This document shows, in pieces, positions 15,918 to 61,525 of a stretch of 64,000 nucleotides of DNA; positions within the stretch are counted from its first letter, which is position 1; each line of letters opens with the position of its first letter. The translations under genes were made by a program, and so were the position numbers. The DNA is taken from NCBI RefSeq assembly GCF_021209385.1, contig NZ_JAJOIL010000037.1, positions 62,001 through 126,000 on the forward strand, read 5' to 3'. The stretch comes from Seleniivibrio sp. (lineage in GTDB: Bacteria; Chrysiogenota; Deferribacteres; Deferribacterales; Geovibrionaceae). A model generated the notes under the pieces. The model saw nothing but the letters and a program-made list of their open reading frames with translations. It was not told the origin of the DNA and made no database searches.

Positions 15918-18283
15918 TTATCTCAGCACTGCACCAAATTCTTTGGTCAGATTATCTATCATCTTCTGGAGCTGTGCGTTTGTCTCCTCATCCGTCAGAG
16001 TTCTGTCGGATGCGGTGAAATACACGCGATATGTGCGGCTCTCCCTGCCCTCTTCTATGCCCTTTCCGGCATAAACGTCGAACAGGAAAGCGTCTTCAGC
16101 AAGCTTGCTGGTACCTTTTATACAGTTTATCATGTCAACGGAAGCTGTTGAACGGTCAACCACAACGGAAATATCCTTGTAAACAGACGGAAACTTGCTG
16201 AAATCCGCAAATTTATACTGGAATATCGCGTTTTCAATCATTTCTTCCATATCTATCTCGAACAGCACGACATTCTCGCGAATGTCAGCTTCGTCGGCAA
16301 CTGCGGGGTGAAGTCACCGATGAAACCGATGGATCTGCCGCCAACAACTATTTCTGCCGCTTTGCCTGGGTGAAGGAAGTGTCTGTCACTTCTGACATAT
16401 TCAGCCTTTATCTTGTATGCGTTCAGCACGTTTTCAAGTACACCTTTAAGAGCGAAGAAAGGTTCTATCGCTTTCGGTGCCGCCCAGCTCATCGACCAGA
16501 AATCGCCTGCAACAGCCGCCGCAAACTTCATACGCTGTTCGGGCAGCCTGTCAGTCTTTGTGAATGACGAAGCGAACTCGAAGAAGCGAGCCTGTTTGAA
16601 GCCGTTGTTAAGGTTATATTTTATAGTAGCCAGAAGCCCGGGGAACACAAATGTTCTCATAGTATTCATGTCTTCTGATATGGGGTTCAGAAGTTTCACA
16701 AACTTGGCTTCGTCGTCGAACAGTTTAAGGAAATCGTCCTTCATGAACGAGTAGTTTATCGCCTCGTTGAAACCCATTGTCTTCATCTGATAACCGATGT
16801 CGCGTCTTGCGGTGAGCAGTCTGCTCATGGGTTTTGAATCGGCATCTATGCGTGGGAGCGTTGTGGGGATATTGTCATATCCGTACATTCTCGCAACCTC
16901 TTCCGCGATATCCTGATCGGACACGATATCCACTCTGTATGAAGGTGCTGTAACGGTCACGGAAGTGCCGTTGACAACAGGATTCAGGTGCAGATCGGAC
17001 AGTATTTTAACAATTTGTTCGTCTGATATGGACGTACCCAGATAGCCGTTTATCCATTTGGTATCAACAGTGACCTTTTTCTCTGCTGGTTCGGCATATT
17101 CGCCGAGTTTTCCATTGCAAACCTTACCGCCCGCAACCTCCTGAAGAAGGTACGCGGCGTAGTCAACCATCTTAACCGGGTTCGCAGGGTCTGCGCCCCT
17201 TTCATATCTGTATGCGGCATCGGAAGTCATTCCGAGTTTTCTTGCTGTTTTTCTTGTCTGTTTCGGCTCGAAATATGCACATTCAAGGAACACGTCTTTG
17301 GTGTCGTTGCTGATACCGGAGTGTTCTCCGCCCATTACACCTGCAAGAGCCAATATCTTCTTTTCATCGGTGATAAGGAGCATTTCCTCATTGAAAGTGC
17401 GCTCTTTTTCGTCCAGCAGAAGAAGTTTTTCGCCCGCTTTCGCGTTGCGGATGATTATCTTTCCGTCAATCTCACGCAGGTCGAATGTATGGAGCGGCTG
17501 ACCGTATTCAAACATTACATAGTTTGTAACGTCAACAACGTTGCTGATGGGACGCACGCCCACAGCACGCAGGCGGTTCTGCATCCAAACGGGTGAAGGA
17601 CCAATTTTAACGTCTTTTATCACTCTGCCCATGTATGTTGGGCAAGCCTCTTTATTCTCAATTACAACTCCGCCGTAATTCTCGGCTTTGTCGTCAGTTT
17701 CCGCAAGATTCCAGCTTCTTTCTTTCAGCTTGAGACCGTAAAGCGCCGCTATCTCCCTTGCATAGCCCACCATGCTGAGGCAGTCCGCCCTGTTGGGGGT
17801 AATGCCTATCTCCATAACGGTGTCGGGAAGACCAAGGTAATCGTTGACATCCATTCCCGCCTCAAGGTGGTCAGGAAGTATCATGATGCCGTCATGGTCG
17901 TCGGAAATGCCTATTTCATCTTCCGCGCATATCATACCGGAAGATTCAGTACCGCGTATTTTTGCTTTTTTTATCTTGAATCCGCCCGGCAATTCAGCGC
18001 CTATCTTGGCAAAAACAACCGTCTGTCCGGCTCTTACGTTGGGTGCGCCGCACACCACCTGATATTCTGCGTCGCCTGTTGAAACAACACAGAGGGACAG
18101 TTTGTCCGCATCGGGGTGTTTTTCGCATTTAAGAACTTTTGCCACGACAACGTTTTCAAGTCTGCTTTTGGTTTCAACGGATTCAACTTCAAGTCCCGCC
18201 ATTGTAAGTTTAGCGGCAAGCTCCTGCATGTCGATTCCGGTTGTATCTACAAATTCGTTTATCCAATTGATGCTTATCTTCAT
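15918..18283 (-). CDS. pheT: Phenylalanyl-tRNA synthetase beta subunit, split by a one-base frameshift
   Basis: Beta subunit of the alpha2-beta2 enzyme that charges tRNA-Phe. From ATG 18283 the protein runs MKISINWINEF, an EMAP/OB tRNA-binding domain (about 40-150), the B3/B4 editing region, B5 and the class II-like core, and then derails after GFIGDFTPQ at about 16303, ending at a false stop near 16253. The next frame continues at once with VADEADIRENVVLFEID and an intact FDX-ACB anticodon-binding domain up to 15918. Restoring one C on the plus strand beside 16302 gives a single normal 788-residue protein. pheT is essential and the remainder is well conserved, so a sequencing or assembly error is the likeliest cause. 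The start has GGAGG upstream and lies 14 bases after pheS. Confidence 0.93.
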
Positions 18284-22718: not shown

Positions 22719-22804
22719 GCCGAGGTGGTGGAACTGGTAGACACGCAGGACTAAGGATCCTGTGGGCGTCAAAGCCTGTGGGGGTTCGAGTCCCCCTCTC
22801 GGCA
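22719..22804 (+). tRNA. tRNA-Leu, anticodon AAG
   Basis: An 86-base class II tRNA. The acceptor stem GCCGAGG pairs with TCTCGGC, then discriminator A73. D arm, anticodon stem CAGGA/TCCTG, long variable arm and T arm (GGGGGTTCGAGTCCCCC) are all formed. The seven-base anticodon loop is CTAAGGA, so the anticodon is AAG, with G37 following as in all CUN-reading tRNA-Leu species. An A at position 34 is unusual, since bacteria normally use GAG here. CCA is not encoded. It is followed by a terminator. Confidence 0.95.
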
Positions 22805-40308: not shown

Positions 40309-40977
40309 TTACTCCGACAAACCGATGATGCACTCCAGATCGGTCTTGACCAAAACATAAGGCACCATTGCTAATGCGTTATAAATACTGTCAGCAGACG
40401 ACATTGCAATTAATTTTTCACCGAAAAGCCCCAGCCAGTTCAACATATGATTTCCGATAAAATCTCTTTGTGTGGAAAGGAACTCCTCTGATATCTCTGC
40501 GCCAAATCTTTTCCGTATCATCGTGCAAATGAAGAGACACTGGATTTCAAGGGAATCCTCAAGCTTACCTGCCCCTGCCGGCAAGCTGAATCCATATTTG
40601 CGGTAGTATCTTCTGCAATCCACCCATTGTTCCCTTTTGATAAGTTTTTTCACGGATAATACGGCAGAAGCAGTGTCGGGAACTTTTTTAACTCCCAATA
40701 CGAAATATTTAGTGTGCTCTCTTGCCATCTCAAGCTCAAAATCAACATTGTCCTTCTTTGCGCGGTTTGTATCCATCCATGCGGTGATTTTTGATATGAT
40801 CATTTCTGCCGCAAGCTTCTCTTCAGCACCAAACGCCTCTTGATATAACAGAATGAGGCTTCTCAGAACACTTACCCTTTCATATGATAAAAATGAGCTG
40901 AAGAGTGTTGACAATTCAGAATAAAGATTAAATCTGCCCTTCATAAACAAATCCATATCAATTGCTTCAGCATTCAT
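40309..40977 (-). CDS. TorD/DmsD-family molybdoenzyme chaperone
   Basis: A 222-residue all-helical cytoplasmic protein of TorD type, judged by length, helix-rich composition, the CRRYYRKYGFSL segment followed by an acidic EDSLEIQCLFICTM helix, and its place in a molybdopterin oxidoreductase locus. These chaperones bind the Tat signal peptide of the catalytic subunit until cofactor insertion is finished. The sequence is more divergent than the TorD protein of locus 2, and several usual family motifs (GHLF..PWES) are absent. It overlaps the radical SAM gene by eleven bases. Confidence 0.72.
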   Translation of the reverse strand: MNAEAIDMDLFMKGRFNLYSELSTLFSSFLSYERVSVLRSLILLYQEAFGAEEKLAAEMIISKITAWMDTNRAKKDNVDFELEMAREHTKYFVLGVKKVPDTASAVLSVKKLIKREQWVDCRRYYRKYGFSLPAGAGKLEDSLEIQCLFICTMIRKRFGAEISEEFLSTQRDFIGNHMLNWLGLFGEKLIAMSSADSIYNALAMVPYVLVKTDLECIIGLSE

Positions 40978-42290: not shown

Positions 42291-42899
42291 CTATTTCCTT
42301 TTGAATATTATGGAAGGCTCAAGATCCTTCCCTAAAGTTGAACTTGCCGAGTTAACCGCCTGTGTGGGGTAACCCGTAACAGTCGACTCTGTACCGGAAT
42401 ATTTTGATTTCAGATCTTCAAGAACTCCGAAATCTATCGCCCTCTGAGGGCATGCTCCAACACATGCTGTCTGCTTATCTGCCGCCACTCTGTCCCAGCA
42501 GCCAGTGCATTTCTGCATTGGATGGTCAACGTTCCATGAGTCATCCTTTTCTGGTTCCTGAGTATCGTCTGCATACTGAGGTGCCCCGAAAGGGCAGGCA
42601 GCAAGGCACATTTTGCAGGCAATACAAGCAGTCCTGTCAACAATGACTATGCCGTCTTCATCTCTTTTGTGTATTGCGCCCATAGGACAAACACTGACAC
42701 AGGCAGGGTTTGCGCAATGGTTACAACCCATTGTAAGCTGGTAAACCTGCAGATTGGGGTAACCTCCTGCTTCTGTTTCGGTTCTTCTCCGCCAGAAGGC
42801 GGGACCGGCATTCACACTGTTCCAGTCTTTACATGCAACAAGACAGGCATCACAGCCGATACATCTCGTCTGATTAAAGTAAAATCCTTTTTGTGACAT
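42291..42899 (-). CDS. DmsB/NrfC-like four-[4Fe-4S] electron-transfer subunit
   Basis: A 202-residue ferredoxin subunit with sixteen cysteines in four motifs: CIGCDACLVACKD, CNHCANPACVSVCP, CIACKMCLAACPFG and CTGCWDR...CVGACP. It lacks a signal peptide and would be carried across the membrane by the Tat signal of the catalytic subunit encoded directly upstream (twelve-base gap). It relays electrons to the molybdenum site. No DmsC/NrfD membrane anchor gene is next to it, so the electron source is probably the hexaheme cytochrome of this locus. Confidence 0.92.
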   Translation of the reverse strand: MSQKGFYFNQTRCIGCDACLVACKDWNSVNAGPAFWRRRTETEAGGYPNLQVYQLTMGCNHCANPACVSVCPMGAIHKRDEDGIVIVDRTACIACKMCLAACPFGAPQYADDTQEPEKDDSWNVDHPMQKCTGCWDRVAADKQTACVGACPQRAIDFGVLEDLKSKYSGTESTVTGYPTQAVNSASSTLGKDLEPSIIFKRK

Positions 42900-42911: not shown

Positions 42912-45900
42912 TTACGCCTTCTCAATTTTCAAACGGTCATCACTGCTCATAGACATACCAAACGCTATACGTGAAGGTCTGCCTGATGAGAGAGAGTTTG
43001 TCGCGCCGCCGATATCTACTCCGTCGGTGCCAACGCTGAACCATCCGCCATCGCCTATTCCGGCGTTATACGGAGCCATTCTGTTTGTAAAGCGGACAGA
43101 GGCATAAAGAACCCCTCTGGAGTTGGAAACCTTCACTCTGTCTCCTTCAGCAACACCTAGCTCCGATGCATGCACAGGGTTCAGATATACAGGTTCATAG
43201 ATATCACTATCCCAGACCCCGTCTGTATAACTTCTTGAGGGATCAAGATAAGCTCTCTCTCCTGCAGAGTTACGCTTATAGAGTTCATTCAGAAGACTTT
43301 CATTACCCATCGTTGAATGCGCGCGGTAATTGAAATGTCCGGTCTGTTTCTTGAATATAAATCCCTTTGCAGTGAGGCCGAGAAGATCCGGGTGTGAATC
43401 ATCTGCGTGCATTGCTTCCACGGCAGGAATATACATCGGAATTGGATAAACGAATCTGCGGCTTGTTGAGTTTGCAGATGTTGAAGCGGTGTATATATGC
43501 CCGCTGTTTTTGAGTACAGACGATCCGTCGGTATCGGTTGTCACTGTGTCCAAACTGGACTGGGCAGCCTCATAATCCTCAAGCATTGCCTGATAATATG
43601 CCTCAATCTTTCCAGACATAGTGTTAAGAGGGTTTGCGGCAGGATCCGTTATAAAGGCTTCTTTGGCAATACGTTTCACCTTATTCGGGCGCTGTTCAAG
43701 CATATTGACGCCGCCCACAAGCTGTATTGCGTCCCAGTCCTGATCTATCTGACCTTCGCTGTAACCTTTGTTCCAGTTGTATTCCGACCATTCATAATCT
43801 GTGTTTACGACTGTGTTTGTTCCGTCACCGACTGTTTTAAACTCCTCTTCTTGACCCCATGCAGCAGCAATTCTTCTGGATATCTCAAACTCGTTGAGAG
43901 CTTCTCCGGGAGCATCAGTGATTTTGGGCATAACAAGTGCCTCGGCAGTGAGCCAGCCGCATGTTTCGCCCCATTTCTCACCCGGTCCTGCACAGGGAAG
44001 GACATAATCGGATATCAGAGAACTGGCTGTAAAGAACAGGTCTCCTGTAAGGATGAGTTCCACATTGTAGTTGCCGTTACCGTCTTTAGCAGTACAGACA
44101 TCAACTATCTCATTGGAGTTTCCTGTCTGATTGACAAAATTACCGCCAAAACAGAAAAGTCCTTTAATTGGTGTTGTAACGGTATTAGATCTTCCGTAGT
44201 TCCATTTTGAAACGTTTGATGTTCCGGCACATCTCACATAATCTATCCAGACAGGAAGAGAAAGACCGTTCATCATGATTACGTTGCAGAGAGGGTTTGT
44301 TCTGGCAGTATTGCCCACATAAGGTCCAAGCTCCCCACCCTGAAGCGTGAGCTTGGTCATATCATATGAATCAGCCTGAATGCTTGAAGAACCGGGGTTA
44401 TTTCCGTTAAGTGCAACCTTATCGCTCATTGTTCCCGGATATTTGTAATTAACCTCATGGGAGAATCCATAGCTTCTGCCCTCAACACCGATATTTTTCG
44501 TAACAGCAGAAAGGATCGGACCGAGGTTTACAGGCATATCACCCTCAGTGTGGCGCTGGAGACCGCCTGAAACCCATGTTGTAACTTTCGTCTTTACATA
44601 CATTTCAGCAAGTTCTCTGATTTTATCAGCAGAAACTCCTGTAATTTTTTCAGCCCATTCCGGTGTTTTTGTTATCTGACCATAGCAGGGAGCAGTTTTT
44701 CCGTAAAGACCGTCAGTAGCGGGAACGTTGTAGCCTATTGTGTCAGGATAAATTGACACACCCTGATTCACTGTTGTGCCTGCAGTCATGTTAGTATAGT
44801 CAGCGGCTTCGGAAGACATAACCGCATTGGTAAGCCTGTCATCGGTTCCCATAATATAAGCTGAAAGTGACGCACCTGCGGGAACCTGATATGCAGTTGC
44901 ATTTGCACTTATATCCGCATAGTAGTGTTTCGGATTCGTATCATCAAAAAATCCGTGAACGTATTTTCTGATGAAAGCCTCGTCAAGCCACGGATCTGCA
45001 AGCAGATTTCCCGATTCATCCCATGTATTCACTATCATCTCATGCAGCATTGCAAGCATAAGAGCAGCATCAGTCGTACCTGTTATGCCTACATAATCAT
45101 CTGCGAATGCTTCCGCTGTGGGAGTAAATCTGGGGTCAATAACAGTGACCTTAACCCCTTTTTCTCTGGCATTTGTTATATACCATGCTGTCTGCGGTCC
45201 GACTCTGGCTTCAGCGGGGTTAAACGCCCAAAGAACAAGATTGTCGGAGTTTTCGATATCCGCTCTGTTATTTGCCACGCGCAGTGCCACTGAGGTTGCG
45301 GTCTCCTGCGCAAATCCGTCATGGTCTATGAAAAAATACGAATAAGTATGCTGAGGATAGCTAAGGTCAAGAACCCATTGCACAGGGCTGCAATCAGATC
45401 CGAGAAGTTTTGTCAGGTTAGCAATCGTGTTGCCCTGGGATGTTCTGTCAGATGGAGCAAGACAGTTGTAAAATGTTGCTCCGCCATATGTGGTATAAAG
45501 GCCCTTTATTTTGGCAGCTATTTCGGATATCGCCTGATCCCATGATATTTCCACGAAACCGGTGATATCTCCCCTTTCTTTTGTCTGCTTAAGAGGTTTT
45601 GTGAGCCTGTCGTTACGATACCACCAATCAACCTTGGATCGGCATCTCTGGCATGATCGTATCTGAGCTTTACCGGCAAAGACATCGCCGTCCTCTCTGT
45701 CTTCATCAGTTACTATTCTTTTTACAACACCCTCTTCCAAATAGTATTTGCTGACGCATCCGCCGCCGCAATTGTGAGGAGTTGAACCTAAAACATATTC
45801 ACCGCCGACATCAGGCGGCTGAAGGTTAGGGTCTGATTCGTCAAAGTAAGTTTTAGTCCCGCTTCCGCCGCAACCGGCAAGGGTGGCAGCAGCTGCCGCC

Positions 45901-45968
45901 GCAGACATTCCCTGAAGAACCGAACGTCTGGTTACTTTTTTATTCTTTAATATTTCTGTGACTTTCAT
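42912..45968 (-). CDS. Tat-exported molybdopterin oxidoreductase catalytic subunit (locus 1)
   Basis: A 1018-residue member of the DMSO reductase family. Tat motif TRRSVLQGM (residues 13-21) with a lipobox-like LAGC at Cys33. The N-terminal [4Fe-4S] motif is odd: where relatives have Cys-x3-Cys-x3-Cys, this protein has Thr63-PHN-Cys67-GGG-Cys71, with the distal pair Cys106/Cys109 in RSCQRC. Later bis-MGD-binding parts are present (LVLWAFNPAEARVGP, KVTVIDPRFTPTAEAFADD, and near the end VYLNPVHASELGVAEGDRV). The substrate is not clear. The ATG at 45968 follows GGAG at seven bases; a TTG twelve bases earlier is less likely. Confidence 0.88.
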   Translation of the reverse strand: MKVTEILKNKKVTRRSVLQGMSAAAAAATLAGCGGSGTKTYFDESDPNLQPPDVGGEYVLGSTPHNCGGGCVSKYYLEEGVVKRIVTDEDREDGDVFAGKAQIRSCQRCRSKVDWWYRNDRLTKPLKQTKERGDITGFVEISWDQAISEIAAKIKGLYTTYGGATFYNCLAPSDRTSQGNTIANLTKLLGSDCSPVQWVLDLSYPQHTYSYFFIDHDGFAQETATSVALRVANNRADIENSDNLVLWAFNPAEARVGPQTAWYITNAREKGVKVTVIDPRFTPTAEAFADDYVGITGTTDAALMLAMLHEMIVNTWDESGNLLADPWLDEAFIRKYVHGFFDDTNPKHYYADISANATAYQVPAGASLSAYIMGTDDRLTNAVMSSEAADYTNMTAGTTVNQGVSIYPDTIGYNVPATDGLYGKTAPCYGQITKTPEWAEKITGVSADKIRELAEMYVKTKVTTWVSGGLQRHTEGDMPVNLGPILSAVTKNIGVEGRSYGFSHEVNYKYPGTMSDKVALNGNNPGSSSIQADSYDMTKLTLQGGELGPYVGNTARTNPLCNVIMMNGLSLPVWIDYVRCAGTSNVSKWNYGRSNTVTTPIKGLFCFGGNFVNQTGNSNEIVDVCTAKDGNGNYNVELILTGDLFFTASSLISDYVLPCAGPGEKWGETCGWLTAEALVMPKITDAPGEALNEFEISRRIAAAWGQEEEFKTVGDGTNTVVNTDYEWSEYNWNKGYSEGQIDQDWDAIQLVGGVNMLEQRPNKVKRIAKEAFITDPAANPLNTMSGKIEAYYQAMLEDYEAAQSSLDTVTTDTDGSSVLKNSGHIYTASTSANSTSRRFVYPIPMYIPAVEAMHADDSHPDLLGLTAKGFIFKKQTGHFNYRAHSTMGNESLLNELYKRNSAGERAYLDPSRSYTDGVWDSDIYEPVYLNPVHASELGVAEGDRVKVSNSRGVLYASVRFTNRMAPYNAGIGDGGWFSVGTDGVDIGGATNSLSSGRPSRIAFGMSMSSDDRLKIEKA

Positions 45969-45985
45969 GGTTATCTCCAAATCTG

Positions 45986-46459: not shown

Positions 46460-47893
46460 TTATATTGATATGTTGAGCCAGACCTCGGCGATAAGGTTCT
46501 GGTCGAAATCGGTTGAGTCGCGTTCCAGTATCTCGCTCTTCTCAAGGCTCACATCGCCTGTGATACTGATACGGTTGTTCAGAGTATACTGACAGCCGAG
46601 ATAATGGGTCTGGATCCAGTCCTTTGTCTCGTCGTCTTCAACATCATATTCAAAACGCTCAAATCTGCTGCCAAGCCATATGTCCAGATTGTCGGATACG
46701 ACCTGTGTCAGCTGACCGCCGAACGTTACGCTTTTATCTGATTTGCCATACGATGTGCTGTCAACATCCCAGTAATCCACATTGAAAGAGATATAGGTGT
46801 TTTTGGACGGAATCCTTGCAAGGTCGAGATAGGCTGTGTATTTCTTGTAATCACGGTTATCAAGTTCATAACCGTTGGCATTTTTATACTCAACCCCGGC
46901 ACCGACTACAACGTGTTCTGTTATTCCCTGAGAAATCCTCACTTTAACCTTTTTGTAATCCCCGTAAGGATACAGAGTGTACGTCAGAGGATTAGAGACA
47001 TAGTACCCGTTCTCTTTACCGATGGAATCGAGAAGTTCTTCATAATTGACTGACAGAGTTGTCTTTGTCGGGTTGTATCTGTAAACGCCGCCAAGCTTAT
47101 AATAGCCGTCGCTGTCAACCTGCCCGTATTCTCCGTAAACTGAAGAACCGTTAAAAGAATAATCTGCCCGAACTTTCTGGAGGTCTTTTGTGTCATCAGA
47201 TATATCAAGGCTGCTGAACACTCCTCTGAGTTTCAGACCGTTCAGTGGTGCCAGCTCTACTCCTCCCCCGTAAACACTGTCGTCATCAGTGTCTACATAA
47301 AAGGAAACAGGACGGCCGCCGAATGCAAACAGTTTTACTTTACTGTCAAGGAAGGATAACTGTGCATCGGCTCCGTCGAGCTGGAAAGTATCAATACGGT
47401 CAACATAAATACGTCCAAGAGTAAGTTCCGTATTCTTAACCACTCCGGAAAATTTCAGATATCCCTGATAAAGACGTGATGCCGATTCGTTATCGTCTGT
47501 CTCCGCATCAAGGATGTCATCATAAAAATAATACCTGTTATCACCCCAGTGTTTTCCGTTTCTGCCGTCGATGTCATGCGCGGCACGGAAAAACAGGGCA
47601 CCGGATACTGTACCGGAACCAAGTTTGGCATCCGAATATCGCATCCGCAAATACTGGTAGATATTCTGGTCGTTGGCATAGTCATTCGCCAGATATCGGT
47701 ATCTGGTCGTCAGACTCATGTCCATACTGCCGCCGAGAATATCATGCTGAACAGCCTGCATTTTAAAGCCGTCTGCCGTCAGATGCTGTGACCATGAATC
47801 AGGGGTCGTGTAATCAGCATCTTCAAGCCCGCCGGCAAATAGAACGCAGGGAAGCAGCAACAATGAAAACATTAATACTGAAAAATGTTTCAT
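46460..47893 (-). CDS. Outer-membrane beta-barrel protein (locus 1)
   Basis: A 477-residue protein with a signal peptide (cleavage after LFA, about residue 20) and then GLEDADYTTPDSW, shared with the paralog at 56281-57708. The remainder shows alternating hydrophobic and polar strands with abundant Tyr, Asp and Gly, ending in an Ile-Ser-Ile strand, as expected for a barrel of roughly 18-20 strands. It may be a substrate porin or, given the neighbouring hexaheme gene, an unusual porin-cytochrome partner; it is shorter than MtrB/PioB barrels. The start has AAAGGAG upstream. It is the first gene of locus 1, downstream of three TetR-type operators. Confidence 0.82.
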   Translation of the reverse strand: MKHFSVLMFSLLLLPCVLFAGGLEDADYTTPDSWSQHLTADGFKMQAVQHDILGGSMDMSLTTRYRYLANDYANDQNIYQYLRMRYSDAKLGSGTVSGALFFRAAHDIDGRNGKHWGDNRYYFYDDILDAETDDNESASRLYQGYLKFSGVVKNTELTLGRIYVDRIDTFQLDGADAQLSFLDSKVKLFAFGGRPVSFYVDTDDDSVYGGGVELAPLNGLKLRGVFSSLDISDDTKDLQKVRADYSFNGSSVYGEYGQVDSDGYYKLGGVYRYNPTKTTLSVNYEELLDSIGKENGYYVSNPLTYTLYPYGDYKKVKVRISQGITEHVVVGAGVEYKNANGYELDNRDYKKYTAYLDLARIPSKNTYISFNVDYWDVDSTSYGKSDKSVTFGGQLTQVVSDNLDIWLGSRFERFEYDVEDDETKDWIQTHYLGCQYTLNNRISITGDVSLEKSEILERDSTDFDQNLIAEVWLNISI

Positions 47894-47957: not shown

Positions 47958-47971
47958 CCAACTAACGTTGG
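47958..47971. promoter_or_regulatory. TetR-type operator 1 (CCAAC-N4-GTTGG)
   Basis: CCAACTAACGTTGG. On the minus strand a candidate -35 TTGGAA overlaps its edge, with TATATT 16 bases on, so binding would block the locus 1 promoter. Confidence 0.65.
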
Positions 47972-48016
47972 ATAATATATCTAAGCACCTGTTCGACATA
48001 GCTGTCAAGTGAAATT

Positions 48017-48030
48017 CCAACGACTGTTGG
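48017..48030. promoter_or_regulatory. TetR-type operator 2 (CCAAC-N4-GTTGG)
   Basis: CCAACGACTGTTGG, a perfect inverted repeat with a four-base centre, 59 bases from copy 1. Confidence 0.65.
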
Positions 48031-48051
48031 ACTTATGATAAATTTATGTAT

Positions 48052-48065
48052 CCAACGTTTGTTGT
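48052..48065. promoter_or_regulatory. TetR-type operator 3 (imperfect)
   Basis: CCAACGTTTGTTGT, one mismatch from the other two, 34 bases before the TetR start codon, consistent with autoregulation. Confidence 0.6.
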
Positions 48066-48098
48066 CGACTTACATTTTTTTGTGTGTTATGAATAACA

Positions 48099-48707
48099 AT
48101 GACTAAAAAAAGCAGAAATTTTTTACAAAACAGAAATGATATAATCGAATTGACAATAGACCTGATAGCCACAAAAAGCGTTGCTTCCGTAAGCATGAGA
48201 GATATCGCAAAAGCCGCGTCTGTGGACACATCCACCCTCTATTATTATTTTAAAAATAAAGAAGATCTGATGTTCCAGATTACCATTCACATAAATGAAA
48301 AAATGCAGGAAGCGCTTCTGAAACTTGACATATCGGAATTTAAATCCGACGAGGAAAAATTCAAATATATTGTGCGATACGTATATGATTATCTGTGTAA
48401 GAAACCTGCACACGCAAGTACTATGAGACAGATGTCTGTAATGGGAAATCTCATTCTGTCAAAACAGATAATGGAAAAGTTCTGGATATAACGGTAAATA
48501 ACCTTATGGTCATGGATTTTTTCAAAGTAGCTTGAATCAAGATACCCGGTCATGCAAACACTGGGGCTGACATCCACGCTTTTCTGTTACATGCCTGTAT
48601 ATGACCTGGCTTTACATACATATTTCCCTCACACTGTCACGGAAAAGCAAATCAACGTTTATATAAACGCTTTATGGAATTCAATCAAAGACTGCAGTAC
48701 AGATTAA
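48099..48707 (+). pseudogene. TetR-family regulator, broken by two compensating single-base indels
   Basis: The first 125 codons give a normal TetR start: helix-turn-helix VSMRDIAKAASVDTSTLYYYF near residues 30-50 and a helical ligand domain. The frame then hits a stop at 48489. One base less in the A-run at 48475-48478 explains this: in the +2 frame the sequence continues VLDITVNNLMVMDFFKV, and after one extra base at about 48530 the first frame resumes with LESRYPVMQTLGLTS and runs to a natural stop at 48705. Repaired, the protein is 202 residues, the usual TetR length. It diverges from locus 1 and the three operators lie between them. Either the repressor is dead or the sequence has errors. 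Confidence 0.8.
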
Positions 48708-48959: not shown

Positions 48960-49748
48960 ATGAAACACGAGCACGAACATCAGCACGAGCATGGTCACGA
49001 ACACCATCATAATCACACCAAAGGCAGGATTCTGACAGTGAGAGCCAATTCGGGACTGTCAGGCGACATGCTGATGACGGGTCTTCTGAAAATGATAACA
49101 TCCGAAGATTCACTTCTGGACAATATACTTTCCGCTGTAATGCCGGAACTGCAAGGCACAGTAAAAATAATCAAAAAGCAGGTAAACGGAATTTACGGGT
49201 GGCATGCCAAGGTTAATCTGCCCCACCAGCACGAACACAGGACACTCAGTGACATAATGGCGATCATAAACGCAAGCGCAATGAGCGACAAAGGGAGAGC
49301 ACTTGCCATAGAAACGTTCACACTTCTCGCCAAAGCCGAAGGGAGTGTTCACGGCAAAAGTGCAGACGAGATACATTTCCACGAGGTTGGCGCTCTCGAC
49401 AGCATACTTGACATCTGCGTTGTCTGCGAGCTTTTCGCGGATATCGCACCCGACAGGTTCGTGGTCAGCCCTCTGCCCATAGCCGACGGAAGCGTCCATT
49501 GCGCCCACGGTATAATCCCCGTCCCGGCGCCGGCTGTTCTTGAAATGCTGGAAGGCATACCAGTGCGCTCATTCAAAGGGTGCGGAGAAACCGTCACCCC
49601 CACTGCAATCTCACTTTTAAAATCCCTGAAAGCTGAATTCGGACTCTGGCCCGACATGACAGTGGATAAAAAAGCGCTGGTCTACGGAACGAAAATATTT
49701 GAAAACGCACCGAACGGAGCTATATTCGCTTCGGGTAAGTGCTTATGA
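48960..49748 (+). CDS. larC: LarC-like nickel-insertion protein, short form with His-rich N-terminus
   Basis: A 262-residue protein. The N-terminus is a metal-binding run of alternating His and Glu (residues 2-19), followed by the LarC signature ANSGLSGDMLMTGLL, then DEIHFHEVGALDSILDICVV and PLPIADGSVHCAHGIIPVPAPA. LarC inserts nickel into the pincer cofactor of lactate racemase and related enzymes. Typical LarC proteins have about 400 residues; the C-terminal LarC2 domain is missing here and I do not find it in another frame. larA, larB and larE are not in the window. I chose the ATG at 48960; other in-frame starts are further upstream and no ribosome-binding site decides the matter. Confidence 0.8.
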   Translation: MKHEHEHQHEHGHEHHHNHTKGRILTVRANSGLSGDMLMTGLLKMITSEDSLLDNILSAVMPELQGTVKIIKKQVNGIYGWHAKVNLPHQHEHRTLSDIMAIINASAMSDKGRALAIETFTLLAKAEGSVHGKSADEIHFHEVGALDSILDICVVCELFADIAPDRFVVSPLPIADGSVHCAHGIIPVPAPAVLEMLEGIPVRSFKGCGETVTPTAISLLKSLKAEFGLWPDMTVDKKALVYGTKIFENAPNGAIFASGKCL

Positions 49749-55400: not shown

Positions 55401-56099
55401 ATGAAATTTCTGCTTGTTGAAGATGATCTGGACATAGCGGAGAACATTATTGAATTTATGGAAGGACGAGGATTCGACATGGATTACGCTATGTCCGGAG
55501 AAATGGCTCTTGAGCTTTTGAAAGACAATACCTACGACGCCGTGATACTGGACATAAACCTCCACGGTATGAGCGGATTCGAGGTCTGTTCAAACATACG
55601 AAAGGTCATGAGGCTGAAAATCCCCGTACTGATGCTGACAGCAAGAATTCTGCTGGACGACAAGATAAACGGTTTTGAATGCGGTGCTGACGATTATCTC
55701 ACCAAGCCGTTCGATCTTGAGGAACTGCTCATCCGTCTGAAAGCTCTGTCCAGAAGGTTCAGACAGTGCGTGACAAACGCTTTTTCTGTTGCCGACCTCA
55801 GCCTCGACCCTGAAAAAGGCACAGTTGAAAGATCCGGCGACTCCATCATCCTGCCTCATGTATGTTTTCGCATATTGTTGAGACTGATGGAAAAATATCC
55901 GGGGATAGTATCAAAGGAAGAGCTGGAATACGACATATGGAAGGATCAGCCGCCAGTAAGCAACTCGCTCAAGTCCCACTTTTATATCCTTCGTCAGCTG
56001 GTGGATAAACCTTATGAAAAACAGCTTCTCCACAGCATACGCGGACGCGGGTATAAAATAGACGATAACCATGTCGAAACGCAGGGCGAACCTGAATAG
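55401..56099 (+). CDS. OmpR-family response regulator of locus 2
   Basis: A 232-residue two-component regulator with an intact receiver: acidic pocket Glu7/Asp8/Asp9, phosphoacceptor Asp51 in VILDINLHGMSG, Thr80 and Lys102 in DDYLTKPF. The C-terminal winged-helix domain (FRILLRLMEKYPGIVSKEEL, RGRGYKIDDN) is closely similar to that of the degenerate regulator of locus 1. The cognate kinase is probably the one at 51020. Direct-repeat boxes before the kinase, this gene, the barrel gene and a candidate RNA are the proposed binding sites. The ATG follows GGAG at eight bases. Confidence 0.9.
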   Translation: MKFLLVEDDLDIAENIIEFMEGRGFDMDYAMSGEMALELLKDNTYDAVILDINLHGMSGFEVCSNIRKVMRLKIPVLMLTARILLDDKINGFECGADDYLTKPFDLEELLIRLKALSRRFRQCVTNAFSVADLSLDPEKGTVERSGDSIILPHVCFRILLRLMEKYPGIVSKEELEYDIWKDQPPVSNSLKSHFYILRQLVDKPYEKQLLHSIRGRGYKIDDNHVETQGEPE

Positions 56100-56280: not shown

Positions 56281-57708
56281 ATGAGAAAAATACTTTCATG
56301 TATTTTTATGCTGGCTTTGGGTGCCGGCAGCGTTTTTGCCTCCGGACTTGAGGATGCGGATTACACGACTCCTGAGAGCTGGCAGGTTCATACGACGCCA
56401 CAGGGGATAACAAAGACCGCAAACGGACACAAGTTCGGCGACGGCACTTTAAACGTTTCTCTCACATCGCGTTACAAGCTGCTGGACAATGATTATCAGT
56501 CTGATCAGAACTTTTATCAGTATCTGAAAGCTGACATATCAAATGTCACAGTCGGTCAGGGCACCATGTCCGGAGTTTTATTCATGCGTGCCGGCAAGGA
56601 TATTGACGGCGACGGCGGATACAAACAGTCCGGACGCTACTATTTCAGAGACGACATCCTGGATGCGGAAGACAGCGGATGGGCTGTAAGAATGTATCAG
56701 GGATTCCTGAAATTCTCCGGTGTGGTAAAAAACACCAACCTGACAATAGGCAACCAGTATGTGACCCATCTGGACACCATCCACATGAACGGTGTTGACG
56801 GGGATGTAACACTGCTGAACAACAAACTGACGGTCTATGCCTTCGGCGGGCAGCCGGACACGTTCTATCTTGACGACAATGATGCCAAAGCCGCAGGCAC
56901 AGGCTTTGTGGCAAAGCTGACCGACAAGCTGAAACTCTCTTCCGGTTACACCTATGTGGACATGGACGACGAGACATCCGACATTTATAAACTGCGCGCG
57001 GATTATACCTATGCAAAAGGCAGGGTATCAGGCGAGTACGGCAACACGGACGGCAACGGATTCTATACACTCGACGGTGTATACAGAAACAGCCCCACAA
57101 AAACAACACTCACCCTGTCATTCCAGCAGCTTCTGGATGAGATAGGAAAAGGCGAAGGCACTTATATTTCAAACCCCATAACCTATTCGCTCTCACCTTA
57201 CGGCAAATACACCAAAGTGAAGGCGAAGGTTTATCAGGGTCTGGGAAAATACATGGCGGCAGGGCTTGGCGCAGAGGTCAAGAACAGAACCGGAGAGGAC
57301 ACTCTGGACAACAGAAGCTATGTTAAATATTCCGGCAACCTCGATTTCATAGGTCTTTTCACGCCCGACACCTTCCTGTCTCTTACTGCTGACTACTGGA
57401 ATGTAGCGGAAAGTGTGGATACCGAGGAAAACTCACAGGTTGCTTTCGGCGGCGAACTTACACAGGTCGTTTCAGACAAAACAAACGTATGGCTCGGTTC
57501 CAGATTCAACAGGTTCGAGTATGACCTTGACGACGGTTCGGAAAAGAACTGGGTGCGCGAGATATATCTCGGCGGCGAACACAAATTCAGCGAAAGAGCC
57601 GCTCTGTCTGTTGATGTCAGCTATGAAAACAGCCAGATACTCAAAGACCTGAACACCGACCTTGAACAGAACTACAGCGTTGAGCTGTGGCTCAGTCTGG
57701 CTATATAA
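56281..57708 (+). CDS. Outer-membrane beta-barrel protein (locus 2)
   Basis: A 475-residue paralog of the locus 1 barrel. Signal peptide with cleavage after VFA (about residue 20), then SGLEDADYTTPESW. Shared blocks include GYLKFSGVVKNT/GFLKFSGVVKNT, NPITYSLSPYGKYTKVKAKV and VSDKTNVWLGSRFNRFEYD. The C-terminus ends in an amphipathic strand (VELWLSLAI). It is likely a porin for the substrate of the enzymes encoded downstream, or a partner of the multiheme cytochrome. A strong AAAGGAGG ribosome-binding site precedes the ATG, consistent with high expression. Confidence 0.82.
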   Translation: MRKILSCIFMLALGAGSVFASGLEDADYTTPESWQVHTTPQGITKTANGHKFGDGTLNVSLTSRYKLLDNDYQSDQNFYQYLKADISNVTVGQGTMSGVLFMRAGKDIDGDGGYKQSGRYYFRDDILDAEDSGWAVRMYQGFLKFSGVVKNTNLTIGNQYVTHLDTIHMNGVDGDVTLLNNKLTVYAFGGQPDTFYLDDNDAKAAGTGFVAKLTDKLKLSSGYTYVDMDDETSDIYKLRADYTYAKGRVSGEYGNTDGNGFYTLDGVYRNSPTKTTLTLSFQQLLDEIGKGEGTYISNPITYSLSPYGKYTKVKAKVYQGLGKYMAAGLGAEVKNRTGEDTLDNRSYVKYSGNLDFIGLFTPDTFLSLTADYWNVAESVDTEENSQVAFGGELTQVVSDKTNVWLGSRFNRFEYDLDDGSEKNWVREIYLGGEHKFSERAALSVDVSYENSQILKDLNTDLEQNYSVELWLSLAI

Positions 57709-57718
57709 GGCGGGTATC

Positions 57719-58186
57719 ATGAAATATGTAATATCTATAATGTTCTGCCTGATATGCATGACAGTTTTCGCATATCAGACATCAAAACCGGAAACACACG
57801 ACAACATGTGGATCAAACAGCACGGCGCAGAGAGCAAGGCTGATCCCGATTCATGTCTGGACTGCCACGAAAACCGTACGTCCTGCATAAAATGCCACGC
57901 GGACACACCGCCAAGAGACCACAACGCGTCATTCAAACGCAAAACTCACGGTCTCAGGGCGCAGTGGGACAGAGACAAATGTCTCGTGTGCCACACAGAG
58001 GCAAGCTGTTTCGCATGTCACCAGACTGCCGCACCCATATCTCACAGAGGTGACTGGGGCGGAAAAATAAGCACTAACGACAAGAATCTGCACTGCAGAA
58101 GCGGATGCCACTATCCTGTTCAGGAAACAACATGCGGAACGTGCCACATGACATCGCACGGTCCCAGAGAACTGATCAGTAATTAA
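57719..58186 (+). CDS. Periplasmic multiheme c-type cytochrome (locus 2)
   Basis: A 155-residue paralog of the locus 1 hexaheme cytochrome. Signal peptide up to VFA (residue 18), then five CxxCH motifs at Cys46, 56, 88, 97 and 139. The position of the fifth heme in the paralog is here Cys126-Arg-Ser-Gly-Cys130-His131, a CX3CH motif. Either heme is attached there in an unusual way or this copy has five hemes. The ATG at 57719 follows GGCGGG ten bases after the barrel gene's stop. The cytochrome likely passes electrons to the DmsA-like enzyme encoded next. Confidence 0.9.
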   Translation: MKYVISIMFCLICMTVFAYQTSKPETHDNMWIKQHGAESKADPDSCLDCHENRTSCIKCHADTPPRDHNASFKRKTHGLRAQWDRDKCLVCHTEASCFACHQTAAPISHRGDWGGKISTNDKNLHCRSGCHYPVQETTCGTCHMTSHGPRELISN

Positions 58187-58197
58187 GGAGGGCAAAA

Positions 58198-60900
58198 ATG
58201 TCAGTAATGGATAAACAACGTATTGATAAAGCTCTGGATATTTCCAGAAGAACATTTGTGAAATGGAGCGCGCTTCTCGGCGCGGCAGCAACTGTAGGCT
58301 GCGGTTCCATGGGCGGATCAGACAAGATAGACGACGACTATGACAGTTCAGACACAGTAATCGAGCCAAAAAATTTCGATTACGACAAAGCTGTATGGTC
58401 TGCATGCAACGTTAACTGCGGAAGCAACTGTCCCCTTAAGCTTTATGTTAAGGACGGCGTGGTTGTCCGCGTAAGCTCCGACAACGAATCCGACGATACA
58501 TACGGCGCATACGGCGCAAGCTATCAGATGCGTTCATGCGTTCGCGGACGTTCCGTACGCCAGAGAATATACAACGCGGACAGGCTTAAATACCCCATGA
58601 AGAGAGTTTCAGGCACCCCCAGAGGCGCCGGACAGTACGAGCGCATCTCATGGGATCAGGCGATCAGCGAGATAGCCGCAAGCATGCAGTCGGTTAAATC
58701 CAACTACGGTCCCGGCGCATTCTACATCCAGTATGCAACAGGTACAATATGCGGGAAATTTTCATGCTCATGGCCGCCCGCATCAACTCCCATGGCAAGA
58801 CTGCACAACCTCTGGGGCGGATGGCTGGATCACTATTCAGACTATTCAACCTCACAGATCACCGCAGAACTCTGCCTTCTTGAAGGAACAAGCTGGAGTA
58901 ACAACACCATCACTGATGCAGTGAACAGCAACCTTGTGGTTCTCTGGGGCAACAACCCTGCGAACACCAGAATGGGTTCTGCGAAACACTTCACATATCA
59001 CCTTCAAAAAGCGAAAGAGGCTAACCCCGACCTCAAATTCCTCATTGTTGACCCCTATTACACCGACACGGCGATCGCTCTTGAAGCGGACTGGATAGCT
59101 ATCCGCCCCGGAACGGATTCAGCTCTTGTGGCTGGTATGGCAAACTATCTGCTCAGTGAAGGTCTTCTCGATGAAACATGGATAGACGCACGCAGCGTGG
59201 GCTGGAGCGAAGCTTCACTTGCGGGCGTGGTTGAGGTTACGGCAGGTTCCGAAAGCTACTATGAACCGGCATATGACAAAGCATGGGGAAACACAGACTC
59301 AACAGAACCCGTTATCCCCGCAAACAGCTCATACAGATCATATATACTTGGTCTCGGAACCGACGGCATAGCGAAAACACCCGCATGGGCATCAGCTATA
59401 ACAGGTATTCCCGAAGCTACCATTAAATCCTTCGCAAAACAGCTCGTCAACCAGTCCCCCGCGATGGTCATTCAGGGCTGGGGTCTTCAGAGACACTCTC
59501 TCGGCGGCGCAAACTCCAGAGCAGTGGGTCTGATAACCATCCTCACCAAAAACATCGGTATCGTCGGCGGCGGTTCGGCAGCAAGGGAAGCGGCAGCATC
59601 AGTTTCAATCAGCATGGATGCATGGTCAAGCACTTTCCCCGCAAACCCTGTGACATATACCATATCCAACTTTGCATGGCCTCAGGCTATCAAAGACAAC
59701 ACTGTAATGACAGGAAGAAACTGGGGTGTAAGAGGACTTGCCACTCAGGACACTGCCCTGCCTCTGCCCATCAAGTTCATATGGAACTACGCAGGCAACT
59801 GTATGCTTAACCAGCACGCAGACGTCAACAGCACAATGGATATGTACAAAGACGAAAACCTTGTACAGACAATCGTCACCATAGACAACTATTTCACTCC
59901 TTCTGCCATGATATCCGACTACATCCTGCCAGACTGTACCAACTTCGAGCAGAACGACATGTCCACAAACGAAGGCGGAAACACTTGTGACATCAAGTTC
60001 CAGAACAAAGCAGTGGAACCCATGTTCGAGTGCAAGACCATCTATGAAATGATGAGCCTTATATCAGCAAAACTCGGTATCGAATCCGCATACACAGAGG
60101 GCAGAACTCAGGACGAATGGCTTGAATACCTGTTCAACCAGTCTATGACAAACTACGGAGATCAGGGAGTGTTCACATCGGCTCTCGGTCAGGATACCTA
60201 TGCAAAATGTCATGCAAAAGGGCTGATCAAACATGTAAGCACAACAGCTACCCCCTCTGTAGCATTTCAAAGTTATGTCAGCGACCCGACATCCAACAGA
60301 GTATCCACTCCGTCAGGTAAATTTGAGATATTCTCCAAACGTCTCTACAACCTCAAACACCAGTGGGTATTCCCCGCTGTTTATAACGACGGAATGGACA
60401 AGATAACCCCTCTTCCCGAATACTATGCGGCTTGGAACGGTTACGAAGACCCCGCAAGAAGCACATATCCGTTTCAGGTTGTGGGCTTCCACTACAAACA
60501 AAGAACCCACTCAACCTACTACAACTGTGAATGGAACAGGGAAGCAAGCATGCAGACGGCTTGGATCAACACAGACGACGCTCAAAGCCTTGGCATTGCC
60601 CACGGAGACACAGTTGAGATTTACAACAGTCACGGCAAAGTGCGTATTAAAGCGAAAGTAACGTCGAGGGTAATGCCCGGCGTTATCGGTCTGCCTCAGG
60701 GAGCATGGTATAACCCCGGCGGCAAATGGTACAGCAGCGACATAGTACACTCCGGCACTCTCACAACAGCTGAAATAGGCAACACGGACGTTGTGGACTA
60801 CGGCGGATGCATGAACGTCCTCACCAGCCTGCGCCCCGGACCTGTTTCTAAAGGCAACTGTCAGCACAGCGTTCTCGCTGCCGTCAAAAGAGTAGGCTAA
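58198..60900 (+). CDS. DmsA-like Tat-exported molybdopterin oxidoreductase (locus 2)
   Basis: A 900-residue catalytic subunit. Tat motif SRRTFVKWS (16-24) and lipobox-like VGC at Cys35. The [4Fe-4S] ligands are canonical: Cys70, Cys74, Cys78 (SACNVNCGSNCPL) and Cys114 (RSCVRGRS). The likely Mo ligand is Ser217 in HYSDYSTSQI, as in DmsA. Cofactor-binding parts include LVVLWGNNPANTRMG and GDTVEIYNSHGKVRI. It should reduce DMSO or another oxide, selenate, or a similar oxyanion; the sequence does not settle which. The start has GGAGGG upstream. The DmsB-like subunit follows after ten bases. Confidence 0.9.
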   Translation: MSVMDKQRIDKALDISRRTFVKWSALLGAAATVGCGSMGGSDKIDDDYDSSDTVIEPKNFDYDKAVWSACNVNCGSNCPLKLYVKDGVVVRVSSDNESDDTYGAYGASYQMRSCVRGRSVRQRIYNADRLKYPMKRVSGTPRGAGQYERISWDQAISEIAASMQSVKSNYGPGAFYIQYATGTICGKFSCSWPPASTPMARLHNLWGGWLDHYSDYSTSQITAELCLLEGTSWSNNTITDAVNSNLVVLWGNNPANTRMGSAKHFTYHLQKAKEANPDLKFLIVDPYYTDTAIALEADWIAIRPGTDSALVAGMANYLLSEGLLDETWIDARSVGWSEASLAGVVEVTAGSESYYEPAYDKAWGNTDSTEPVIPANSSYRSYILGLGTDGIAKTPAWASAITGIPEATIKSFAKQLVNQSPAMVIQGWGLQRHSLGGANSRAVGLITILTKNIGIVGGGSAAREAAASVSISMDAWSSTFPANPVTYTISNFAWPQAIKDNTVMTGRNWGVRGLATQDTALPLPIKFIWNYAGNCMLNQHADVNSTMDMYKDENLVQTIVTIDNYFTPSAMISDYILPDCTNFEQNDMSTNEGGNTCDIKFQNKAVEPMFECKTIYEMMSLISAKLGIESAYTEGRTQDEWLEYLFNQSMTNYGDQGVFTSALGQDTYAKCHAKGLIKHVSTTATPSVAFQSYVSDPTSNRVSTPSGKFEIFSKRLYNLKHQWVFPAVYNDGMDKITPLPEYYAAWNGYEDPARSTYPFQVVGFHYKQRTHSTYYNCEWNREASMQTAWINTDDAQSLGIAHGDTVEIYNSHGKVRIKAKVTSRVMPGVIGLPQGAWYNPGGKWYSSDIVHSGTLTTAEIGNTDVVDYGGCMNVLTSLRPGPVSKGNCQHSVLAAVKRVG

Positions 60901-60910
60901 GGAGGATAAG

Positions 60911-61525
60911 ATGAGCAAACAGTACGGATTCTACATAGACACCAAACACTGTACAGGATGCAAAGCTTGCTTTGTCGCCTGTAAAGACAGACAGAACCTG
61001 AACACCGGAGAAAAATTCAGAAAAGTTTATGAATTCTCCGGCGGCACATGGAGCAGTGCTGACACAGACGCTTTCAGCAAGAACGTGTTCGCATTTTATG
61101 TCTCCATGTCATGCAACCAGTGCGACAATCCGGCATGCCTTAACGTATGCCCAGCAGGCGCATATACGAAAAGAGATGCGGACGGCATCGTTGTTTACGA
61201 TGCTTCCAAGTGTATCTCCTGTTTCGGATGCCAGAAAGTATGCCCCTACACAGCTCCGGTATACGATTATGAAGCACAGCACATGAAAAAATGTATCATG
61301 TGTACTGATGAAAAAGATTCCAGCGGCATACCCGACCCCGCTTGTGTCAAGGCTTGCCCCTCAAGGGCGCTTGACTTCGGCGAGATCGAAGCGCTGAAGG
61401 CAAAATACGGTGATGCAAACACCGTGGCATCCTTCCCGACAACAACCAAACCCAATGCCGTCTTTAAGCTCCATAAAGACGCGTCATCCGGCAATGTTGT
61501 CATGAACAAGGAAGAAGTATTCTAA
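60911..61525 (+). CDS. DmsB-like four-[4Fe-4S] electron-transfer subunit (locus 2)
   Basis: A 204-residue ferredoxin subunit with four cysteine groups: CTGCKACFVACKD, CNQCDNPACLNVCP, CISCFGCQKVCPY and CIMCTDEKDSSG...CVKACPS. Very similar in layout to the locus 1 subunit. It receives electrons for the DmsA-like enzyme. There is no DmsC-type anchor gene after it; a TorD gene follows beyond a stem-loop. The ATG follows AAGGAGG. Confidence 0.93.
   Translation: MSKQYGFYIDTKHCTGCKACFVACKDRQNLNTGEKFRKVYEFSGGTWSSADTDAFSKNVFAFYVSMSCNQCDNPACLNVCPAGAYTKRDADGIVVYDASKCISCFGCQKVCPYTAPVYDYEAQHMKKCIMCTDEKDSSGIPDPACVKACPSRALDFGEIEALKAKYGDANTVASFPTTTKPNAVFKLHKDASSGNVVMNKEEVF

Follow-up and report, generated by a model that had tools for sequence, protein, structure and literature searches.

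A putative TetR-type repressor, probably interrupted by assembly errors, and its operator-like palindromes beside a DmsAB-like operon of Seleniivibrio sp.

A tetR-type gene of Seleniivibrio sp. that is broken by two frame changes in the deposited assembly is best read, on its sequence and surroundings, as coding for an ordinary repressor of the TetR type, acting on a DmsAB-like respiratory operon that is island-borne and here called locus 1. The gene lies divergent to the first gene of this operon, from which it is separated by a short region carrying clustered operator-like palindromes, and the same arrangement recurs with an unbroken regulator in another genus of the family. We consider it somewhat likelier than an even chance that the two indels are assembly errors, and in the living strain the repressor, of about 202 residues, is probably intact. 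All positions refer to the window, the stretch of 64,000 nucleotides analysed here, unless a contig is named.

Results

The tetR-type gene is broken twice in the deposited sequence

The tetR-type gene occupies 48099-48707 on the plus strand and is interrupted in the deposited sequence. The deposited ORF (48099..48491, plus strand) comprises 130 aa, frame 0 ending at the TAA at 48489-48491, and its start holds a TetR_N helix-turn-helix domain (PF00440; 50.8 bits against a cut-off of 24, E 1.4e-13). Beyond this stop the TetR homology runs on in the -1 frame as far as the TGA at 48533-48535, and from 48531 it is back in frame 0 up to the stop at 48705-48707. The frameshift by two indels that an earlier note on this DNA had described is present in the deposited sequence, and both frame changes could be located. 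The homology most likely switches from frame 0 to the -1 frame within 48475..48491 (plus strand), in any case at or before 48491, and the A4 run at 48475-48478, where that note had placed the loss of one base, is a plausible site. The return to frame 0 (48528..48535, plus strand), which had been put near 48530, is pinned to about 48528-48535 because stop codons of both frames flank it, a TAG in frame 0 (48528-48530) and a TGA in the -1 frame (48533-48535).

The whole interval measures 609 bases and fits 202 codons plus a stop, in agreement with the repaired 202-residue regulator proposed earlier, and its pieces co-align with an intact homologue of 200 aa. Alignment to this homologue also defines the C-terminal tail of the gene in frame 0 (48531..48707, plus strand). 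The deposited sequence lacks a full-length C-terminal ligand/dimerisation domain in one frame, since its frame ends after 130 aa; the C-terminal part is in the DNA as a separate piece and is complete in the homologue.

TetR proteins pair through C-terminal helices. Were the lesions real, tetR would be a recent pseudogene and locus 1 constitutive, and the 130-aa product would keep its DNA-binding domain, lack the C-terminal pairing helices and repress poorly or not at all. We give this reading a substantial chance, clearly below one half. It draws on the frame changes being present in the deposited sequence, and on an unaided single-sequence fold of the 130-aa ORF that yields seven helices and stops before the C-terminal part, a weak prediction (mean pLDDT 69.6; residues 102-127 below 50). 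Locus 1 also lies in a segment, described below, without similarity to a genus mate, where loss is common, and accessory genes on islands do decay. Against it, the return to frame within ~60 bases, brought about by the second indel, has no evident benefit after the first stop. Real lesions would mean that an extra respiratory reductase is expressed constantly, which would make the locus a minor example of lost regulation on a mobile segment.

The sequence of the tail bears on this choice. Compared with the intact homologue, 28 of its 51 codons give the same residue, as do 76 of 127 in the head, and the differences at codon positions 1, 2 and 3 number 19, 10 and 30 in the tail and 43, 26 and 73 in the head. 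The third-position excess typical of coding DNA is kept in the tail, whose conservation equals that of the head and which shows no sign of decay. The tail has therefore evolved as coding sequence until very recently and, judged by this codon pattern, old decay of tetR is excluded. A real recent knockout would give the same pattern, which therefore does not decide between error and genuine lesion; the undecayed tail nonetheless weighs against the pseudogene.

A third explanation, programmed recoding, would have a -1 slip at A_AAG (48476-48479) and a +1 slip at GCT TGA (48530-48535) yield a full-length repressor, perhaps in a condition-dependent manner. Motifs of the A_AAG and TGA type can slip, and the letters at both sites (the A_AAG tetramer; the TGA in the shifted frame) would permit it; if true, this would be a switch by two opposite frame changes on a respiratory repressor. 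The intact relative, however, has a continuous frame with neither site, and a pair of programmed shifts in opposite directions so close together (within 60 bases) would be very unusual. Recoding clusters are moreover rare, 146 among 19,430 clusters of frame-shifted genes as given in PMC3711429, and we regard this explanation as extremely improbable.

Other conserved genes of the assembly are split, including the only pheT

Frame splits were surveyed in conserved genes from stretches of this assembly with the ORFs of three genus mates (G004, G003 and G002), covering about 675 kb of its 2.9 Mb together with 800 kb of G004, 233 kb of G003 and 120 kb of G002. In the strict count, which required at least 35 unique residues in each piece, 6 of 314 distinct conserved gene places (322 kb) of the assembly were split between frames, against 1 of 367 when the test was reversed onto the genus mates (0/168 in G004, 1/107 in G003 and 0/92 in G002), a modest difference. 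The single split place in G003 lies in an N-terminal over-extension of the query ORF, whose call is too long. A looser count had also flagged C13:58715 and C13:197298 in the present assembly and, in G003, a second place against ORFs of the present assembly and one against ORFs of G002; because the pieces involved were short or N-terminal, these places were left out for both the assembly and the genus mates. In-frame stops flagged by the first count were left unused, several of them preceding the likely start codon or belonging to the wrong strand.

Besides pheT, the six split genes comprise those of a chemotaxis receptor, a Bcr/CflA-type transporter and a TPR protein, and two whose products, of 187 aa and 210 aa, could be assigned to no family (for the former, at the threshold used). 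Three of the six breaks fall in runs of 8 or 9 A/T, where genuine slippage or phase variation is conceivable, and to that extent they count against reading the tetR lesions as errors.

The break in pheT is of another kind. This gene (15921-18283, minus strand), the sole copy in the genome, is cut at 16304-16313 (C13:78304-78313), so that its last ~130 residues lie in another frame, and in relatives it gave one continuous match in 20 of 20. PheT is normally essential, and since a cell without its C-terminal part should not live, the break is most simply an assembly error.

Because the same assembly breaks the sole pheT and other genes, and because the tail of tetR is undecayed, the tetR lesions are probably errors as well. 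The earlier note had expected locus 1 to be derepressed in this strain if the lesions were real, and had named sequencing errors as the alternative; that alternative is now favoured on both grounds, and derepression in the living strain is no longer the likelier reading. More generally, claims of broken genes that come from this assembly, which has a frame break in at least one presumably essential gene, need reads.

Exact palindromes cluster between tetR and the barrel gene

The gap between the barrel gene of locus 1 (start 47893, minus strand) and tetR (start 48099) measures 205 bases. It holds two exact CCAAC-N4-GTTGG palindromes, CCAACTAACGTTGG at 47958..47971 and CCAACGACTGTTGG at 48017..48030, and a third operator-like site, CCAACGTTTGTTGT at 48052..48065, whose right half reads GTTGT and thus has one mismatch. 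Three intact operators had been claimed for this gap; the copies at 47958 and 48017 bear this out, and the one at 48052 departs from the consensus.

Two exact sites of the form YCAAC-N4-GTTGR in a region of 205 bases were reached in none of 20,000 dinucleotide shuffles. The 2.9-Mb genome has exact CCAAC-N4-GTTGG three times, twice in the tetR-barrel gap; the third copy (C15:10119) was rejected as an operator, lying inside an 867-aa ORF that we take to be ClpB. When one mismatch is allowed, the whole window has three matches, a number that 30 of 100 shuffles reach and that is hence not unusual. What is unusual is that exact sites cluster in a single intergenic region.

The palindromes might instead be sites of another factor, or chance, and unrelated to the tetR regulator. 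This is consistent with the lack of genome-wide enrichment of YCAAC-N4-GTTGR, which was found at 11 places against 13 for a reversed control, and the operator evidence therefore consists of clustering and conservation. Both speak against such a reading, the clustering through the shuffles given above and the conservation through the matching region of a related genome described in the next section, and we consider it unlikely.

A promoter-like site precedes the barrel gene, and its -35-like hexamer (47961-47956, minus strand) overlaps palindrome 1. This overlap is weak evidence, because promoter-like sites are no commoner here than in shuffles (5 against 5.2).

The regulator, the sites and the barrel gene recur in another genus

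Among 59 relative genomes, 42 contain a TetR-family match to the tetR ORF. With the window's own gene set aside, just two matches exceeded 50 bits, and both belong to one genome (G010) of the same family and another genus, with 61% identity on its contig C22, spanning 124 aa of the N-part, and 40% on C27. A scan of genome contigs for the regulator gave, among the best 80 of 420 matches, remote TetR proteins only and none from a near relative. Only one gene, in a single genome, is both close to the regulator and intact. This homologue on C22 (L110:215-817) is one continuous frame of 200 aa.

Upstream of the homologue stand TCAACGAACGTTGA at 76-89 and a one-mismatch site at 131-144, a combination of one exact and one mismatched site that 0 of 20,000 shuffles of the region reproduced. 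A copy of the same barrel gene is oriented divergently from the homologue, and the TCAAC-N4-GTTGA-like sites lie between the two. Only the first codons of this barrel gene are on the contig, and their DNA matches the barrel start at the end of contig C12, where the encoded barrel shares 38% identity with the locus 1 barrel over 90 residues. Exact YCAAC-N4-GTTGR was found at two places in the 3 Mb of G010, one of them beside the tetR homologue, against 14 for the reversed control; no such site was present at the C12 barrel copy, which has no tetR beside it. The gene in the window and its homologue are thus alike in their orientation to the barrel gene, in the matching palindromes between and in their N-parts, and they differ in the continuous 200-aa frame of the homologue and in its sites, which read TCAAC-N4-GTTGA (one exact, one mismatched).

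The closest relatives seen of the large and small subunits of locus 1 are likewise in G010, on contig C27 (73% and 68%), beside the second TetR gene. The contigs of G010 break inside near-identical barrel genes (C12 end, C22 start and C2 end), and therefore several copies of the locus were probably collapsed or cut in its assembly.

The earlier proposal of a TetR regulator with operator-like palindromes before a barrel gene thus finds its counterpart in another genus of the same family. Since the regulator-site-barrel arrangement is conserved there, the best reading of the region is a putative regulator-operator-operon module. The palindromes adjoin the gene and are conserved with the regulator, as would be expected for the TetR family.

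Locus 1 is a barrel-cytochrome-DmsAB-like operon in a segment without DNA similarity to a genus mate

Locus 1 encodes, in order, a barrel protein, a c7-type cytochrome, a molybdopterin subunit, a DmsB-like subunit, a radical SAM protein, a TorD-like chaperone and a further iron-sulphur protein. The barrel gene (46460..47893, minus strand), divergent to tetR, specifies a barrel-like exported protein of 477 aa, assigned by homology to the barrel gene family and without a Pfam or NCBIfam match. Profile matches identify the small multihaem c-type cytochrome (Cytochrome_C7, PF14522; 45986..46450), the DmsB-like four-cluster iron-sulphur subunit (42291..42899) and the TorD-like chaperone (40309..40977), all on the minus strand. 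The molybdopterin subunit of the DMSO-reductase family (42912..45980, minus strand) has 1022 aa, and the C27 protein named above is its 73% identical relative. Its score against the DmsA/YnfE model TIGR02166, 317 bits, falls below the cut-off of 777.7, and it is therefore regarded as a DMSO reductase family relative and not filed as DmsA.

A segment of about 28 kb that holds locus 1 (22837-50901) has no DNA similarity to the genus mate G003, which both flanks match. The segment begins just past a tRNA-Leu gene (22719-22804) and also carries TonB-type receptor, ABC transport, CobN-like, chelatase-like and HipA-like genes (labels by eye). Beyond tetR, a LarC-like nickel insertion gene (48960-49748; PF01969) covers profile positions 4-228 of 375 only, its C-terminal part being absent, and 7 bases separate its end from the next start codon.

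A second barrel-cytochrome-DmsA/DmsB set lies at 56281-61525, preceded by a response regulator (55401-56099). Its barrel and the locus 1 barrel share 47% identity, and its large subunit, at 885.9 bits, scores above the cut-off of the DmsA/YnfE model; no YCAAC-N4-GTTGR site was found before this set. In the genome of a family relative (G007, C1:193359-212236), four homologues of the barrel gene stand in a row at a spacing of about 5.8 kb, which suggests a tandemly multiplied locus.

Discussion

Taken together, these features suggest that a TetR-family repressor would bind the YCAAC-N4-GTTGR sites in the tetR-barrel gap and so hold down the divergent barrel-cytochrome-DmsAB-like operon, probably along with its own gene, until released by a ligand. 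The frame changes of the deposited gene would then be indel errors of the assembly, and the repressor at work in the cell would have about 202 residues. We hold this explanation as a whole, comprising the repressor, its operators and the lesions as errors, with moderate confidence. The palindrome motif beside the intact homologue offers a direct handle on the switching of one such operon family.

The proposed module fits the pattern of TetR repressors of divergent neighbours. In Streptomyces, a TetR-family gene separated by less than 200 bp from a divergently oriented neighbour is most likely its regulator (PMC3511530). The gene described here resembles those treated in that source in its TetR_N domain, its divergent target and the palindromic sites in the gap, which here spans 205 bases. 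It differs from them in that its product would act on a barrel-cytochrome-DmsAB-like operon and not on an efflux pump, and in that its frame is broken as deposited.

With regard to the operon, the dmsEFABGH genes of Shewanella are described as serving extracellular DMSO/iodate reduction (PMC11302344). Locus 1 is like them in content, a DmsA-type molybdoenzyme, a DmsB-type subunit, an outer-membrane protein and a c-type cytochrome being encoded together. It differs from dmsEFABGH, as that source presents it, in its small c7-like cytochrome, in the 477-aa barrel that matches neither Pfam nor NCBIfam, in its radical SAM and further iron-sulphur genes, and in its putative control by a TetR regulator.
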